Under the pieces are notes generated by a model. It did no database searches. It had not been told where the DNA came from and saw only the letters and a list, made by a program, of their open reading frames with translations. DNA of 64,000 nucleotides from Fodinibius saliphilus (GTDB lineage Bacteria; Bacteroidota; Rhodothermia; Balneolales; Balneolaceae): contig NZ_VAWF01000001.1 in assembly GCF_005869845.1 (NCBI RefSeq), positions 558,001 through 622,000 of the forward strand, written 5' to 3'. Below, in pieces: positions 1,295 to 9,182 of the stretch (positions are counted from its first letter, which is position 1; every line of letters starts with the position of its first letter). The translations under genes were made by a program, and so were the position numbers.

Positions 1295-1963
1295 ATGAAA
1301 ACAAGAGTACCACATACAGTTAAGAATATATTGATGGTCAGCATAATTATGTATTGCACGGGTTGTATCTTTAATAAGAGTACAGACCCGTCTATAGATG
1401 ATTCATTTGAACCAGTCGAGGAAGTGAGTTTGGTCAATGGTGCCGAAGATGTAACGGTTACGGTTAATAATGATGACAATGCTTATTTTAGCCTGACTTT
1501 TAGCAATATTACTGAAAATAATATTATCGAAAATGGAACAAAGGAAGGGTGGTGTATAGATTGGAAAAGGGGTATCAATTCTAACAACGGCACCTATAAG
1601 GGAATTAGATTGTTTTCAACTGACAATGTTGAAAAGTGGAAAAAACTGAATTACCTGATCAATATAAAAGATGCGTTAATGGATGATGATGCATCCATTG
1701 GCTTCCGTGAAATACAGGCTGCTATATGGACATTGCGCGCTCATCCTGAATTTGATTTAGATAAATTAGCTGTAGAGCAACTTCCAAATAACATGCAAGC
1801 TGACGGAGAACCGCAATTCAGTTATGACAAGGTAAGCAACATTTTAGATACAGTAGATGATGGTTATTCGTCATTTGATTTTAAGTCAGGCACAAAGTTT
1901 GCAGTTATTGCGGAAACACCTTCAGATGTTCAAACCATCTTTACTGTGGTTGAGAAAAAATAA
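1295..1963 (+). CDS. Surface lipoprotein with probable thioester-forming domain
   Basis: The 222-residue protein has a type II signal peptide: a hydrophobic segment, then a lipobox-like YCTGC with lipidated Cys24. This predicts export and lipid anchoring. A short linker (to about 40) precedes one domain. Two motifs match thioester domains (TED/TQXA type): GWCIDW with Cys87 and EIQAAIW with Gln141, set in the family's usual Cys...NYLIN...QxAIW arrangement. Known thioester domains form a Cys-Gln internal thioester that reacts with amines on a target surface; that activity here is inferred. An AGAGAGG ribosome site lies 5-12 bases before the ATG. The gene stands alone behind a sigma-54-type promoter at the edge of the polysaccharide cluster, which suggests surface or matrix attachment. 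Alternatively it could be a structural relative that does not form the bond. Confidence 0.7.
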   Translation: MKTRVPHTVKNILMVSIIMYCTGCIFNKSTDPSIDDSFEPVEEVSLVNGAEDVTVTVNNDDNAYFSLTFSNITENNIIENGTKEGWCIDWKRGINSNNGTYKGIRLFSTDNVEKWKKLNYLINIKDALMDDDASIGFREIQAAIWTLRAHPEFDLDKLAVEQLPNNMQADGEPQFSYDKVSNILDTVDDGYSSFDFKSGTKFAVIAETPSDVQTIFTVVEKK

Positions 1964-2814: not shown

Positions 2815-4032
2815 ATGGACTATTCAGCTAATAGAATTTACCTTTCACCTCCTCATATGGGAGGACAGGAAGAGCATTATATTCGGGATGCTTTCAATAA
2901 AAATTGGATAGCACCGATGGGAGAAAATGTGGATGGGTTTGAACAGGATCTGCAAGAATATACCAATCGAAATGAAGCCGCTGCTGTATCATCAGGTACT
3001 GCTGCTATTCATCTTGCGTTGATTCTTTGTGATGTGGGACTGGGGGATGAGGTAATATGTCAATCATTTACATTTACCGCTTCTGCTAATCCTATACGAT
3101 ACCAAGGTGCTACACCAATCTTTATAGATTCAGAACCGGTTACCTGGAACATGGATCCTCAGCTTTTGGAGAAAGCAATCTTAGATCGGATGGAGAAGGG
3201 AGTCAAGCCTAAAGCGATCATACTGGTACATCTATATGGTATGCCAGCAAAAGTTGACCGAATTTTGGCAGTTGCTGGAAAATACGATATTCCGGTTATT
3301 GAAGATGCCGCAGAAGCAATGGGATCAGCCGTTGAACATTATAAATGCGGAGGCTTTGGGCTATTGTCGATTTTCTCTTTTAATGGTAATAAAATTATCA
3401 CGACCTCGGGTGGCGGGGCCTTACTTAGCGATGACAGGAGGTTGATTCGAAAAGGCCGTTTTTTGGCAACACAAGCACGGGATGAGGCACCACACTACCA
3501 GCATTCTCAGCTGGGATATAACTATCGAATGAGTAATATTGTAGCTGGTATTGGTCGTGGTCAAATGCAGGTTTTGGATGAACATGTCAAAGCAAGGAGA
3601 GCAAATCATGCGTTTTATTTTGAGCAGCTAGAGGGCGTTTGGCTTGAAGAGGAGACGTTACAAACCATGCAAACACCAGCTTTTACCGGTGCCGGGACAT
3701 CAAAAGGAATCTATTTCTTAAGAGAACCTGCCGGTTATTTTAGTAATCGCTGGCTTACTACTATTCTCGTAAATCCCGAAGAGACGGGGGGGGTTACCGC
3801 CACCGATATTCGTCTGGCATTGGAAGAGAAAAACATAGAATCACGTCCGCTTTGGAAGCCGATGCATCTGCAACCCCTGTACAGGAGTTGCAAGCATTAT
3901 GAAAATGGGGTATCGGAAAAACTTTTTGAACTGGGATTGTGTCTTCCTTCAGGAAGTAACCTCTCAAATCGAGAGCGCTTACGGGTTGTTTCAGTGATTA
4001 GGAAAACGTTGAGGGACGTTCATTACGAGTAA
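2815..4032 (+). CDS. DegT/DnrJ/EryC1/StrS family sugar aminotransferase
   Basis: This 405-residue PLP enzyme probably transfers an amino group to a keto-sugar nucleotide. Visible family marks are SSGTAAIHLAL near residue 59 (cofactor phosphate binding), EDAAEAMGS (Asp164, pyridine nitrogen contact), and FNGNKIITTSGGG with the Schiff-base Lys193. NYRMSN and the C-terminal RPLWKPMHLQP stretch are also typical of the EpsN/PglE-like branch. Length is normal. It precedes a membrane UDP-sugar 4,6-dehydratase whose keto product would be its natural substrate, suggesting synthesis of a 4-amino-4,6-dideoxy sugar for surface polysaccharide. It has its own sigma-54-type promoter. A palindrome overlaps its stop codon (4026-4042). 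Confidence 0.9.
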   Translation: MDYSANRIYLSPPHMGGQEEHYIRDAFNKNWIAPMGENVDGFEQDLQEYTNRNEAAAVSSGTAAIHLALILCDVGLGDEVICQSFTFTASANPIRYQGATPIFIDSEPVTWNMDPQLLEKAILDRMEKGVKPKAIILVHLYGMPAKVDRILAVAGKYDIPVIEDAAEAMGSAVEHYKCGGFGLLSIFSFNGNKIITTSGGGALLSDDRRLIRKGRFLATQARDEAPHYQHSQLGYNYRMSNIVAGIGRGQMQVLDEHVKARRANHAFYFEQLEGVWLEEETLQTMQTPAFTGAGTSKGIYFLREPAGYFSNRWLTTILVNPEETGGVTATDIRLALEEKNIESRPLWKPMHLQPLYRSCKHYENGVSEKLFELGLCLPSGSNLSNRERLRVVSVIRKTLRDVHYE

Positions 4033-4191: not shown

Positions 4192-4208
4192 TTGGCATAA
4201 CTCTTGTG
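4192..4208 (+). promoter_or_regulatory. Sigma-54-type (-24/-12) promoter
   Basis: TTGGCATAACTCTTGTG has GG at 4194-4195 and GT at 4206-4207, again 10 bases apart. Transcription would start near 4219. This excludes the in-frame GTG at 4219 as a start and favours the ATG at 4252, which is preceded by AGAGGG. Confidence 0.68.
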
Positions 4209-4251
4209 TAGTACATAAGTGATAAGGAATAATAGAGAAAGAGGGATTCAG

Positions 4252-6177
4252 ATGGAACTTGAAACATATAACAAGAGATTTAAGTTACTAAATAAATTTA
4301 CGAGGGGAGTGTTTTTTCTGATAGGGGATACGCTGTCACTATTAGTTTCAGCTATGGGGGCCTTTCTGATTCTTTCCATGGTACACCCGAGTGAGATAAC
4401 ATTTCCAATCCAGCAAACACTGATAGTTACAGGGTCGGTATTGGCGGGATTAGCGATATTCAAAATGTATGTTATTAAGTGGCGTTATGTAAGCTTGAAC
4501 GACTTGATTCGTATTATCTTGGGGATAACCATTGGAGGGGGGATTTCACTGGGACTCACTGAAGCATTTTTAGAGGTTGGAAGGTATGAAGGAGCCTTTA
4601 CGGCCCTTCTGATGATTAATGCAGTGATCTCAATAGGTGCTTTTAGAATAAGTAAACGATTGTATCACGGACTCAAAGCATCATCGAAGAAACAAAATCA
4701 TACCATCATTTTTGGTGGTAAAAGTGAAGGAGAACAGATATTGCGAGATATCTTGAACAATGATAACTGGGATTTGTCGGTATACGCAATTTTTGATGAT
4801 CGCTTAATTCCAGGGACTTTCCTGCACGGTGTAAAAATAGTGGGAGGTAAAAATGAGATGATTGGGTATCTCAAAACCCATGAAGTTGATCAGCTTATTG
4901 TCGCATTCCCAGATTATCCTAAAAATGATCTAAAGGTAATGTTCGATGAGATTAAAAAAATTAGCCCAGATATGAATATCAAGGTACTACCTTCATTTCA
5001 TTCCCTGACTGATAACCCTGTAGGAATAGAACATATCCGTGAGGTAAGTATTGATGACATCTTGGGTAGAGAACCGGTTAGTATTGATATAAAGACTATT
5101 GAAAATAGTATCAGTGGAAAAACAATCCTGGTAACCGGTGCCGGGGGATCTATTGGTAGTGAGTTAATCAGGCAATGTGCAGCCCTTAATCCCTCAAAGC
5201 TGATTGCCTTGGATATCGATGAGACAGAACTTTTTCATATCAATAATGAATTAAAGGATAGTGGGGCTTCGCTGATTCCTTGTGTAGCTTCAGTTACGGA
5301 TAGCAAGAAGATGGAAAAGATCTTTTCCAAGTATAACCCTGATGTGTTATTTCATGCAGCGGCCTACAAGCATGTACCGATGATGGAAAGTTTCCCTGAT
5401 GAAGCGATTAAAGTAAATGTCGGTGGTACCCGTTCAATAGCTACGCTGGCCTGCAAGTATGAAGTTGAAAAATTTATAATGATTTCAACTGACAAGGCTG
5501 TAAACCCTGCTAATGTGATGGGGGCAACCAAGCGTGTGGCCGAAGAAGTGTGTATGGCGTTTAATAGCCGAAGTACCAAGACCAAATTTATGTCAGTTCG
5601 TTTTGGCAATGTCCTTGGTTCAAGAGGATCTGTGGTTCCACTTTTTATTGAACAGATAAAGCAAGGTGGGCCAATCACTATAACAGACCCAGAAATGAAA
5701 AGATACTTTATGACTATTCCCGAAGCCGTATTGTTAGTTATGCAGGCTGGATCAATGGGTAGAGGGGGAGAAGTTTTTGTGTTAGATATGGGAGAACCGG
5801 TTAAAATTATTGATATGGCCAAAGACTTGATTCGACTGCATGGGTTAAAGCCATATATCGATATTCCAATTGATGTAATTGGGCTTAGACCTGGAGAAAA
5901 GTTATTCGAAGAATTATTGAACGCAGAAGAAGGCGTTTTAGAAACTGAGTATGAAGAAATTTTTAAAGCAAAATGTAGTAGAAAATTAGCAGAAAATGAA
6001 TTAATCCAGCGAATTGACCAGCTGTTTGATTCATTGGACCAGAAAAATGGAAATTCAATAAAAAAACAGCTTAAAGAAATTGTACCCACATATTCCTTTA
6101 AAGAAAAGAAAACACTCAACAATGGTATTATACATCCAAAAGTTGATCATTCAGTCTTTATGGGAAGAGTAAACTAG
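4252..6177 (+). CDS. Membrane UDP-N-acetylhexosamine 4,6-dehydratase (WbpM/PglF/CapD type)
   Basis: The 641-residue protein has about four membrane segments in its first 150 residues, a CoA-binding-like Rossmann domain (about 155-270, from HTIIFGGKSEGEQIL), and an extended SDR dehydratase domain opening with VTGAGGSIGSEL near residue 295. The catalytic region reads ISTDKAVNP...VMGATKR, with Met in place of the usual Tyr, as known for WbpM-type enzymes. It would convert a UDP-HexNAc to the 4-keto-6-deoxy sugar at the inner membrane, feeding the aminotransferase just upstream. I chose the ATG at 4252 because the promoter places the transcript start near 4219 and an AGAGGG site precedes the ATG. 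The kinase gene follows after 31 bp. Confidence 0.9.
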   Translation: MELETYNKRFKLLNKFTRGVFFLIGDTLSLLVSAMGAFLILSMVHPSEITFPIQQTLIVTGSVLAGLAIFKMYVIKWRYVSLNDLIRIILGITIGGGISLGLTEAFLEVGRYEGAFTALLMINAVISIGAFRISKRLYHGLKASSKKQNHTIIFGGKSEGEQILRDILNNDNWDLSVYAIFDDRLIPGTFLHGVKIVGGKNEMIGYLKTHEVDQLIVAFPDYPKNDLKVMFDEIKKISPDMNIKVLPSFHSLTDNPVGIEHIREVSIDDILGREPVSIDIKTIENSISGKTILVTGAGGSIGSELIRQCAALNPSKLIALDIDETELFHINNELKDSGASLIPCVASVTDSKKMEKIFSKYNPDVLFHAAAYKHVPMMESFPDEAIKVNVGGTRSIATLACKYEVEKFIMISTDKAVNPANVMGATKRVAEEVCMAFNSRSTKTKFMSVRFGNVLGSRGSVVPLFIEQIKQGGPITITDPEMKRYFMTIPEAVLLVMQAGSMGRGGEVFVLDMGEPVKIIDMAKDLIRLHGLKPYIDIPIDVIGLRPGEKLFEELLNAEEGVLETEYEEIFKAKCSRKLAENELIQRIDQLFDSLDQKNGNSIKKQLKEIVPTYSFKEKKTLNNGIIHPKVDHSVFMGRVN

Positions 6178-6208: not shown

Positions 6209-8563
6209 ATGTCGGAATCAATTCAAAAATTTGATGATAATCATCATAACTCAGAGCGCTCCTCTTTTCAATATGCATATAACGTTGAACCAGATGAGAC
6301 TGAACTTACACCTCAAAAGGTTGTATCAATACTGTTGCGTTATAAATGGCTGGTTCTACTTTTTTTGATTGCAGGTGCAGTGGGTTCATGGTTTTATGCT
6401 GATAGCATTACTCCAACATATGAAAGTGAAGGAACTATGATGATTAGCTCAAATGCAGGGGCTTCTGATGATGAGCTTTCTTCGATTATTTCAAAAGCAA
6501 CCGGGCATGGTATAAATGCAACGCTTGAAAATGAATTACAGGTACTTAAATCGCGCAATTTTGCTAGCAGAGTGGCTGAGAAGTTTTTGGCAACGCTTCC
6601 AGAAAAGGTAGAGAATTATCCCATTTTATGGGCTGAATCTGAAGAAGGTGGGCCATTTCGAGTAAGTGAGCAAACTGTAACATCAAGGATAAGAAGAGGA
6701 CTAGATTTTCAGAAAGTTTCTGATGACTCAGATGTGATTGCTATTCTGTTTTCAAGCACTTCGCCCGAGGAAGCGGCAAAAATCGTAAACCTTACAATGG
6801 ATATTTATGTAAAAAGTTCTACCCGACAAAACCGGCAGGCCGCGGCATCAACGGCTGATTATTTGGAAAATGAAAAGAAAGAGGTAAAGGATAGGCTGGA
6901 AGCTGCTGAACAACGCCTCCATCGATATATGGATGCTACTGGTATCGTACAGGTAGATAAGCAGGCATCAGGGATTATTACCAGAAGAGTAAATCTAGAA
7001 ACCGAATTGCAAGAAGTAAACCTTGAGTTAAATACCATAGGTGAAAAGATTGACAATTATGAAAAACAGCTAGAGCAAATAAAGCCGGGGCTCTCTGATC
7101 AATTTTCAAAGGCTCTCGGTCCACGAATTAGAAATGCACAGGAGGAATTAGCTCGATTTGAAAATGAACGAACGCTCATTATTTCTAAAAATCCCGGAGT
7201 TGAGGACCGTGATACATTACCGCCAAGGTTGGTTTATGTAGATAAACAAATAGAACGTCTGACAGATAAAATTAAAGAGCTTTCAAGTCAATTATTCACC
7301 AAAGATGAAGAGTTTTTGGGAATGAATTCAGAAGAGCGAGCAAAGATGGTATCAGGAATCCAAAGCGAACTAGTGGAGCTTAAAATTGAACAAAATCAAT
7401 ATCAATCCCGGAAGAAGGCTTTAGAAGAGCATAAAGTAGAGCTGGAGAGTAATTTTGAGGCATTACCGCAAGGCATGATTAAACTGGCCCAGTTGAAACG
7501 TGATGTTAGAATAAATGAAGAACTCTTTGTTAAATTATCACGACAGTTAGCAGATATATCTGTTTGGCGACAGTCTCAATTTGGATATGGGCGTATTGTT
7601 GATGACGGAGAAATCCCAACGGTACCGGTGAGTCCAAACAAAAAAATATTTATTATTTTAGGTCTCATGCTTGGTGGAGCTTTGTCAGCAGGGTTCATAT
7701 TTATAAAAGAATTTAATGACAATACCATTAAAAGTGCTAGCGAGCTGCGGGAAAATTACCCCAGATTACTTTCATTTACAGTGGTGCCTTCCCTTGAAAA
7801 GGTTTCGCGAAAAAATCGAAAAACATTTAAAGTTGGTGATGGCACAATCCCCAAAGAAGTTGTGTTGCTACAAGATCGTTCTAGCATTCAGGCTGAATCT
7901 ATAAGAAGATTAAAGAATAATATCATTTACCAATATGGTGAAACTCCTCCTCAAACAGTAGCAGTTACAAGCCCGGAAAAAGGAGATGGAAAATCAACAA
8001 TTGTTAGTAATCTAGGTATTGCACTTGCTGAAGAAGGATATAAAACGTTAATCATTGATGCTGATTTCCGGTGTCCCCGAATTCACACTTATTTTGGGTT
8101 GGATCGAGGAAAAGGGCTGTCAGACTTTTTAATGAATAAAATTACGTTCAAACAACTTCTTTCAAATATTCGCCATACTGATTTGGAAGCTTTGAAGGTA
8201 TTAACAGCCGGTACAGAAACGACGTATCCCCAAAATTTGGCTAACAACAAAGCACTAAAGGAAGTTTTAAAAAAGATGGAGAACGTGTTTGATGTTATCC
8301 TTTTGGATAACCCACCATTTGGTATAATTAGCGATTCTACCTCATTATTGAAAACAGCTGAATCGGTTTTAGTAGTAGCCAGGTATAGAAAAACAAATCA
8401 GGGAATGCTACTTAGAACAGTTGAAGAGCTAGAACGAATTAATGCAAATGTAACTGATATTGTGGTAACAGATTTTGATTATCGTAAAGAGCCTGGTGGC
8501 CTTTATGGAGCAGGGGATTACCAATCACTTTACGACAATTATGAGGATTATAATAGGACCTAA
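6209..8563 (+). CDS. Polysaccharide co-polymerase with tyrosine autokinase domain (Wzc-like)
   Basis: The 784-residue inner-membrane protein controls chain length and export of surface polysaccharide. It has a Wzz-type N-terminal region with a membrane segment (about 47-66), a long periplasmic coiled-coil part (about 210-430), a second membrane segment (about 480-500), and a cytoplasmic BY-kinase domain. The kinase shows Walker A SPEKGDGKST (about 587), Walker A' LIIDADFRCP (about 614) and Walker B VILLDNPP (about 696). The tail, from about 765, contains five Tyr residues (YGAG, DYQSLYDNYEDY), the usual autophosphorylation cluster. It follows the dehydratase closely and is probably cotranscribed from the sigma-54-type promoter at 4192. 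Confidence 0.92.
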   Translation: MSESIQKFDDNHHNSERSSFQYAYNVEPDETELTPQKVVSILLRYKWLVLLFLIAGAVGSWFYADSITPTYESEGTMMISSNAGASDDELSSIISKATGHGINATLENELQVLKSRNFASRVAEKFLATLPEKVENYPILWAESEEGGPFRVSEQTVTSRIRRGLDFQKVSDDSDVIAILFSSTSPEEAAKIVNLTMDIYVKSSTRQNRQAAASTADYLENEKKEVKDRLEAAEQRLHRYMDATGIVQVDKQASGIITRRVNLETELQEVNLELNTIGEKIDNYEKQLEQIKPGLSDQFSKALGPRIRNAQEELARFENERTLIISKNPGVEDRDTLPPRLVYVDKQIERLTDKIKELSSQLFTKDEEFLGMNSEERAKMVSGIQSELVELKIEQNQYQSRKKALEEHKVELESNFEALPQGMIKLAQLKRDVRINEELFVKLSRQLADISVWRQSQFGYGRIVDDGEIPTVPVSPNKKIFIILGLMLGGALSAGFIFIKEFNDNTIKSASELRENYPRLLSFTVVPSLEKVSRKNRKTFKVGDGTIPKEVVLLQDRSSIQAESIRRLKNNIIYQYGETPPQTVAVTSPEKGDGKSTIVSNLGIALAEEGYKTLIIDADFRCPRIHTYFGLDRGKGLSDFLMNKITFKQLLSNIRHTDLEALKVLTAGTETTYPQNLANNKALKEVLKKMENVFDVILLDNPPFGIISDSTSLLKTAESVLVVARYRKTNQGMLLRTVEELERINANVTDIVVTDFDYRKEPGGLYGAGDYQSLYDNYEDYNRT

Positions 8564-8666: not shown

Positions 8667-9182
8667 ATGAAACAATTAACGTTATTAGTATCCCTTTTTA
8701 CAACAATATTAGTCTTAAACTCTTCCTCATTGGTAGCACAAATACAACAAGGCGGTAACAGGCTAATTCGTGTTGCAGAAATTGGACAACTTGCAGACTC
8801 TATTAATGTATGGGGTGATGTTGGTAGCTCAGGACGATTCATAGTTCCGGAAGATACTAAACTGCCGGAGTTGATCTCATATAGTTTTGGATATAATGTA
8901 CTGCGTGGGAATCAGAATAATATCGATTGGGCTAAAACCCAGATTGAAGTAAAAGTATCTCGATATAATGCAGACAGAAGGTTTGTAGAAGTGGCTTATT
9001 TTCGATATCGATACCATGACCCGGAACCTAAAGAGATGTTTGAATTTGATTTACAGAACAATGACATCGTAAGTTTACAGGTAAGACGAAAACCGTCTTT
9101 TACAGATTATGTGGATGTAGTGGCGCCGGTAGTAAGCGTTATTGCTACATCAATTTTGTTGATTGAGAACCTGCGAAACTGA
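8667..9182 (+). CDS. Small exported SLBB-like protein (orphan Wza-related)
   Basis: The 171-residue product has a signal peptide (about 1-25, ending SLVAQIQ). Residues about 38-75 read DSINVWGDVGSSGRFIVPEDTKLPELISYSFG, here split from a pattern like 'V.G.V..PG.......T.L..L', the hallmark of SLBB domains in polysaccharide-export proteins. The N-terminal poly_export domain of full-length Wza (over 350 residues) is absent. A hydrophobic segment near the C-terminus (about 148-165) could be a membrane anchor. It sits right after the Wzc-like kinase, where a Wza partner is normally found, so a role in the export channel is a reasonable inference. It is not a visible truncation: it has its own start and signal peptide. 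Confidence 0.65.
   Translation: MKQLTLLVSLFTTILVLNSSSLVAQIQQGGNRLIRVAEIGQLADSINVWGDVGSSGRFIVPEDTKLPELISYSFGYNVLRGNQNNIDWAKTQIEVKVSRYNADRRFVEVAYFRYRYHDPEPKEMFEFDLQNNDIVSLQVRRKPSFTDYVDVVAPVVSVIATSILLIENLRN

Follow-up and report, generated by a model that had tools for sequence, protein, structure and literature searches.

The 222-amino acid (aa) protein encoded near the start of a 64,000-nucleotide stretch of the Fodinibius saliphilus genome (hereafter, the window) is best read as a divergent, class I-like thioester domain (TED) that stands alone on a lipid anchor. The TED fold is strongly supported by structural modeling, and the domain probably forms a thioester that is predicted to link Cys87 to Gln213. 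An earlier note on this DNA had already read the protein as a TED from its sequence, and the fold, a profile match, and the order of the motifs agree with that reading.

Anchoring and predicted fold of the lipoprotein

The gene and the predicted parts of its product are as follows (positions in the window):

1295..1963, + strand: coding sequence of the 222-aa thioester-domain lipoprotein (ATG start, full-length homologs, AF2 model)
1295..1366, + strand: lipoprotein signal peptide and lipobox, with lipid-acceptor Cys24 (codon 1364-1366; ...YCTG-C24)
1427..1960, + strand: thioester domain, residues from about 45 to 222 (AF2 model and structure comparison)

The open reading frame (ORF) carries GWCIDW with Cys87 and EIQAAIW with Gln141 at the residues where the earlier note had placed them. 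Its description as a Gram-negative-type lipoprotein was borne out by the lipobox, whose Cys24 is invariant in both family alignments (A2 and A3) and which is present in 60 of 63 family ORFs. The AF2 model comprises one fold spanning residues of about 40 to 222 and no second domain, in keeping with the claim that the protein has no other domain. The LPXTG anchor and isopeptide or ester stalk by which TIE adhesins are defined were not found in this 222-aa lipoprotein. Class I TIE adhesins have both and come from Gram-positive hosts, and most TED adhesins have a stalk domain, whereas the Balneolaceae protein is lipid-anchored and stalkless.

A profile search against the TED/TQXA family, which the earlier note had proposed as a check, came back empty: TED models in Pfam and NCBIfam gave no match to the 222-aa protein, even at an E-value of 10, or to any of 33 family members. 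PF08341 matched nothing in the F. saliphilus genome; the model does match other Bacteroidota. Searches of PDB sequences with the protein or the family profile also returned no match.

The AF2 model, built from 60 relatives (mean pLDDT of 89.6), orders the secondary structure as four strands, with Cys87 on the third, followed by three helices and two strands. TEDs have been described as three central core helices flanked by beta-sheet regions (PMC4450167), and the characteristic beta barrel and three-helix bundle were found here with AF2, Foldseek, and VIA-align. The first 13 Foldseek matches were all TED chains (probability 0.89-1.00) and were followed by unrelated proteasome chains (probability around 0.1). 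The VIA-align comparison matters because the Foldseek E-values for the TED matches were modest (1.3e-3 to 5.5e-2). It returned 12 PDB entries, all TEDs of class I or II, with Z of 8.4-10.3 over 135-158 residues, in a list made up exclusively of TEDs, where the lack of other folds is no proof on its own. Class I TEDs (SfbI 5A0L, Cpa 2XIC/4C0Z, CpTIE 5A0G, and PnTIE 5A0N) share the fold across that range of Z, and the class II TEDs BaTIE (6FWV) and EfmTIE86 (6FWY) share the head fold at Z of 10.1 and 9.5.

In class II TEDs, the bond Gln is preceded by an Ig-like insert, whereas no seven-stranded beta-sandwich insert (~75 residues) was found at this place in the F. saliphilus protein; a short link (194-200) instead joins helix 177-193 to strand 201-207 of the model. 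This insert is likewise absent from class I TEDs. However, the protein is only 7-11% identical to the Gram-positive class I TEDs and, unlike them, is unmatched by PF08341.

A comparison of the family profile (60 relatives) with nine Pfam-recognized Bacteroidota TEDs gave a score of 30.2, which was reached by none of 200 column shuffles (best 20.7, mean 13.4, sd 2.1). The alignment is in the correct register and pairs WCID with FYCID and IQAAIW with VQLAIW. Since the HH-suite probability for this profile pair is just 21%, it is the shuffles and the register that carry the profile argument. The Bacteroidota PF08341 TEDs differ from the 222-aa protein in that they are mostly on proteins of 400-2200 aa.

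Residues of the predicted thioester

Three sites in the protein bear on the bond:

1553..1555, + strand: Cys87, predicted thioester Cys (WCID; conservation, structure alignment)
1715..1729, + strand: Gln141-Trp145 of helix 2, counterpart of TQxxPhiW (invariant in 60/60 relatives; aligned to VQLAIW of Pfam TEDs)
1931..1933, + strand: Gln213 (VQTIF, PhiQzetaPhiPhi), predicted partner of Cys87 (motif, alignment offset, co-loss)

The earlier note had paired Cys87 with Gln141. Cys87 holds up as the predicted bond Cys, but Gln141 is the helical TQxxPhiW Gln and Gln213 fits as partner instead. WCID ends strand 81-87 and follows the [YFL]C-hydrophobic-hydrophilic motif of the barrel strand except at its first place, where Trp precedes Cys rather than the Tyr, Phe, or Leu of class I TEDs. 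The helical motif is found as IQAAIW, with Ile for Thr. In characterized TEDs, the Gln of TQxxPhiW does no more than hydrogen-bond the backbone of the Cys, and the thioester can form without it (PMC4450167, PMC6194298), as reported for Cpa (PMC4450167), while the thioester-forming Gln belongs to a PhiQzetaPhiPhi motif on a beta strand further along the chain (PMC4450167, PMC6194298). Because the literature assigns the TQxxPhiW Gln a non-bonding role, Gln141 is not the expected partner. DVQTIF is the sole PhiQzetaPhiPhi match in the protein, and its Gln213 is two residues ahead of the last strand (215-220). The order of motifs (Cys, helical QxxPhiW, PhiQzetaPhiPhi) and the position of the bond Gln are those of class I TEDs: the published bond Gln of SfbI (261), CpTIE (267), and PnTIE (247) all fall on residue 213 when counted back from the last aligned residue, on the assumption that the final 7-9 residues are free of gaps.

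Cys87 and the C-terminal Gln occur together in 53 of the 60 relatives, in three of which the Gln is displaced by one or two columns (AQDQI). Both are lost in the remaining seven, which have Ser or Leu at Cys87 and Glu, Asp, or a gap at Gln213. These seven share one side of a single branch (support 99/96); the co-loss is therefore one event rather than seven, and as a single event it does not yield an independent-pairs statistic. A bond between Cys87 and Gln141 would accord with the invariance of Gln141. However, Gln141, together with Trp145, is kept in the seven relatives that lack Cys87 and aligns with the helical Gln that Cpa can dispense with, whereas Gln213 tracks Cys87 and coincides with the published bond Gln. 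We consider the Cys87-Gln141 pair highly improbable as the bond.

Judged by sequence, the seven-member clade consists of degenerate thioester domains, and where examined, their C-terminal parts match DUF3466/HAF repeats. That the clade keeps the domain, fused to these repeats, after losing both residues suggests that the TED fold can be useful without the bond. The fold might then serve throughout the family as a stable non-covalent binding module in which the thioester is rare or absent and Cys87 and Gln213 are structural. Against this, all 53 Cys-bearing relatives hold both residues, down to about 25% identity, and the only other invariant Cys or Gln in A2 are the lipobox Cys24 and the helix Gln141. 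A non-covalent module is thus quite unlikely, and we infer that the Cys87-Gln213 bond forms.

Distribution, paralogs, and other thioester domains

Full-length relatives were identified in 23 of 92 Balneolaceae genomes, representing 6 of 21 genera. Among 395 genomes drawn across the phylum, a single match was detected outside the Balneolaceae, and it was marginal and partial. When 84,980 species genomes were scanned, 19 loci were returned, mostly labeled Balneolaceae; five records are named Chitinophagaceae, Bacteroidetes, or Rhodothermaceae, names that come from the titles of metagenome assemblies. In these searches, the family was almost confined to Balneolaceae.

A second family member, of 360 aa, is encoded in the F. 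saliphilus genome. It is located about 50 kb upstream among polysaccharide genes (about 507655-508275 of the contig; L002:1012-2091, minus strand) and has a C-terminal beta domain (WGW...IYIVAHA) with no family assignment. Its model is weak (pLDDT of 71.4) and gave no convincing structure match. Other genomes encode up to six members each, ranging from 213 to 714 aa, with extra domains that comprise SdrD_B or Big_2 Ig domains in some and DUF3466/HAF repeats in others. By their sequences, the paralogs with SdrD_B and Big_2 Ig domains resemble stalked surface adhesins, which would favor the TED reading.

In papers dating up to 2021, TEDs are described as Gram-positive: exclusively so in the founding survey (PMC4450167) and likewise in a later one (PMC8092201). 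The statement in the earlier note that such domains are mostly studied in Gram-positive adhesins is accurate for the literature, but Pfam TEDs (PF08341) were detected in 32 of 395 genomes of the phylum Bacteroidota, where they are on large proteins. These have an apparent Ig-like insert, and some have tails that by eye resemble type IX secretion sorting signals. The open literature that we searched contained no paper describing TEDs in Bacteroidota or with PEP-CTERM. One Bacteroidota assembly encodes a PF08341 protein of 221 aa whose tail resembles PEP-CTERM (L150:800-1465). This protein is isolated, being found in 1 of 41 genomes of its family, and may be contamination; it otherwise hints at TEDs in exosortase systems.

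Gene neighborhood, promoters, and possible role

The lipoprotein gene stands alone between a PF13568 barrel gene and polysaccharide genes, and the following features surround it:

213-938, - strand: beta-barrel outer-membrane protein, divergent (PF13568)
1212-1227, + strand: sigma-54-type (-24/-12) promoter of the lipoprotein gene, CGGCATAATAATTGTA
2700-2715, + strand: sigma-54-type promoter before the polysaccharide genes, TGGCATAACTATTGTA
2815..4032, + strand: DegT/DnrJ-type sugar aminotransferase, first of the polysaccharide genes
4193-4208: sigma-54-like site before the Polysacc_synt_2 gene
4219..6177, + strand: Polysacc_synt_2 nucleotide-sugar epimerase/dehydratase
6209..8563, + strand: Wzz/GNVR/AAA_31 Wzc-type chain-length tyrosine kinase
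8667-9182: exported 171-aa protein without a family match

The aminotransferase, Polysacc_synt_2, and Wzc-type genes downstream uphold the exopolysaccharide neighborhood described in the earlier note, and three other Balneolaceae genomes have Wzc homologs near their TED genes. In other genera, the 171-aa exported protein is retained beside Wzc homologs at 55-67% identity. In other Fodinibius genomes, the TED gene is immediately preceded by genes for leucine-rich-repeat (LRR) proteins and followed at a short distance by a glycosyltransferase gene. LRR surface proteins, one with fn3, occupy this upstream position in most Fodinibius clusters examined; in F. saliphilus, LRR genes are about 15 kb from the TED gene. 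The cluster in the window also encodes an XrtA-type polysaccharide deacetylase (L128:9145-10017), with a match to TIGR03006 (E 3.5e-72) that is below the cut-off. An exosortase/PEP-CTERM reading was not supported for this genome: PF09721 gave no match in it, although the same model matched one control genome.

The lipoprotein and polysaccharide genes had also been proposed to share a promoter class, and the two sites, CGGCATAATAATTGTA and TGGCATAACTATTGTA, do match. Allowing one mismatch, the window alone contains 8 sites versus 4.7 expected, which is near chance, and the case for the promoter therefore rests on conservation. The site is kept in 7 of 9 genus orthologs, at a distance of 62-101 bases before the ORF start; the expectation is 0.006 per 160 bases, from a background that includes the promoter sites themselves. 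Exact sites number six genome-wide, with four of the six within 64 kb around the cluster, and rpoN is present in the genome. Sigma-54 binds -24(GG)/-12(GC) elements, and in Proteobacteria it drives the expression of secreted proteins linked to exopolysaccharide (PMC1569441); the -12 element here is TTGTA, versus TTGC. The RpoN-dependent PEP-CTERM protein PepA of Aquincola moves exopolysaccharide from the released to the cell-bound fraction (PMC9850573). PepA is likewise a secreted protein whose sigma-54-driven gene is tied to exopolysaccharide, but neither PEP-CTERM nor an exosortase is found in the F. saliphilus case. PepA may be taken as a working analogue of the lipoprotein's role rather than a shown homolog.

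We assume that the protein is an outer-membrane-type lipoprotein displayed at the cell surface. The Capnocytophaga-type lipoprotein surface-export signal of Bacteroidetes was not matched in the protein or in family ORFs, and we know of no export signals of this kind in Balneolota. The lack of a known Bacteroidetes signal would accord with a periplasmic lipoprotein whose thioester joins it to peptidoglycan or to some other part of the cell envelope. This is unlikely, however, given the exopolysaccharide and LRR-protein neighborhood, the sigma-54 co-regulation, and the Ig- and SdrD-bearing paralogs, which are typical of surface proteins.

For a surface-exposed TED, we propose that the protein would be exported and lipidated at Cys24, with a tether of about 15-20 residues holding the domain. 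Folding would place Cys87, on the third strand, beside Gln213, at the start of the last strand, so that their side chains close into a thioester while Gln141 and Trp145 of helix 2 brace the Cys backbone. The thioester could then capture a nucleophile (an amine, possibly a hydroxyl) on co-expressed matrix or a neighboring surface, permanently joining Gln213 to its target through an amide or ester, and sigma-54 control would time the lipoprotein together with exopolysaccharide synthesis. A role as a covalent tether of matrix or neighboring cells is possible, and we advance it tentatively. The narrower proposal, of a sigma-54-controlled capsule anchor in which the lipid-anchored TED attaches the exopolysaccharide made by its own cell to the outer membrane through a covalent bond, is rather unlikely. 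Speculatively, the XrtA-type deacetylase could expose amino sugars of the exopolysaccharide as free amines for the TED.

Because Pfam already recognizes TEDs in Bacteroidota, the kind of domain is not new there; what is new is the divergent lipoprotein variant. It carries the TED fold beyond current sequence models, to stalkless, exopolysaccharide-linked lipoproteins of Balneolaceae from saline habitats. The sister clade that lacks both bonding residues provides a natural control for the family. Should the bond form, bacteria without a known animal host would be using covalent attachment for matrix or cell-cell adhesion.
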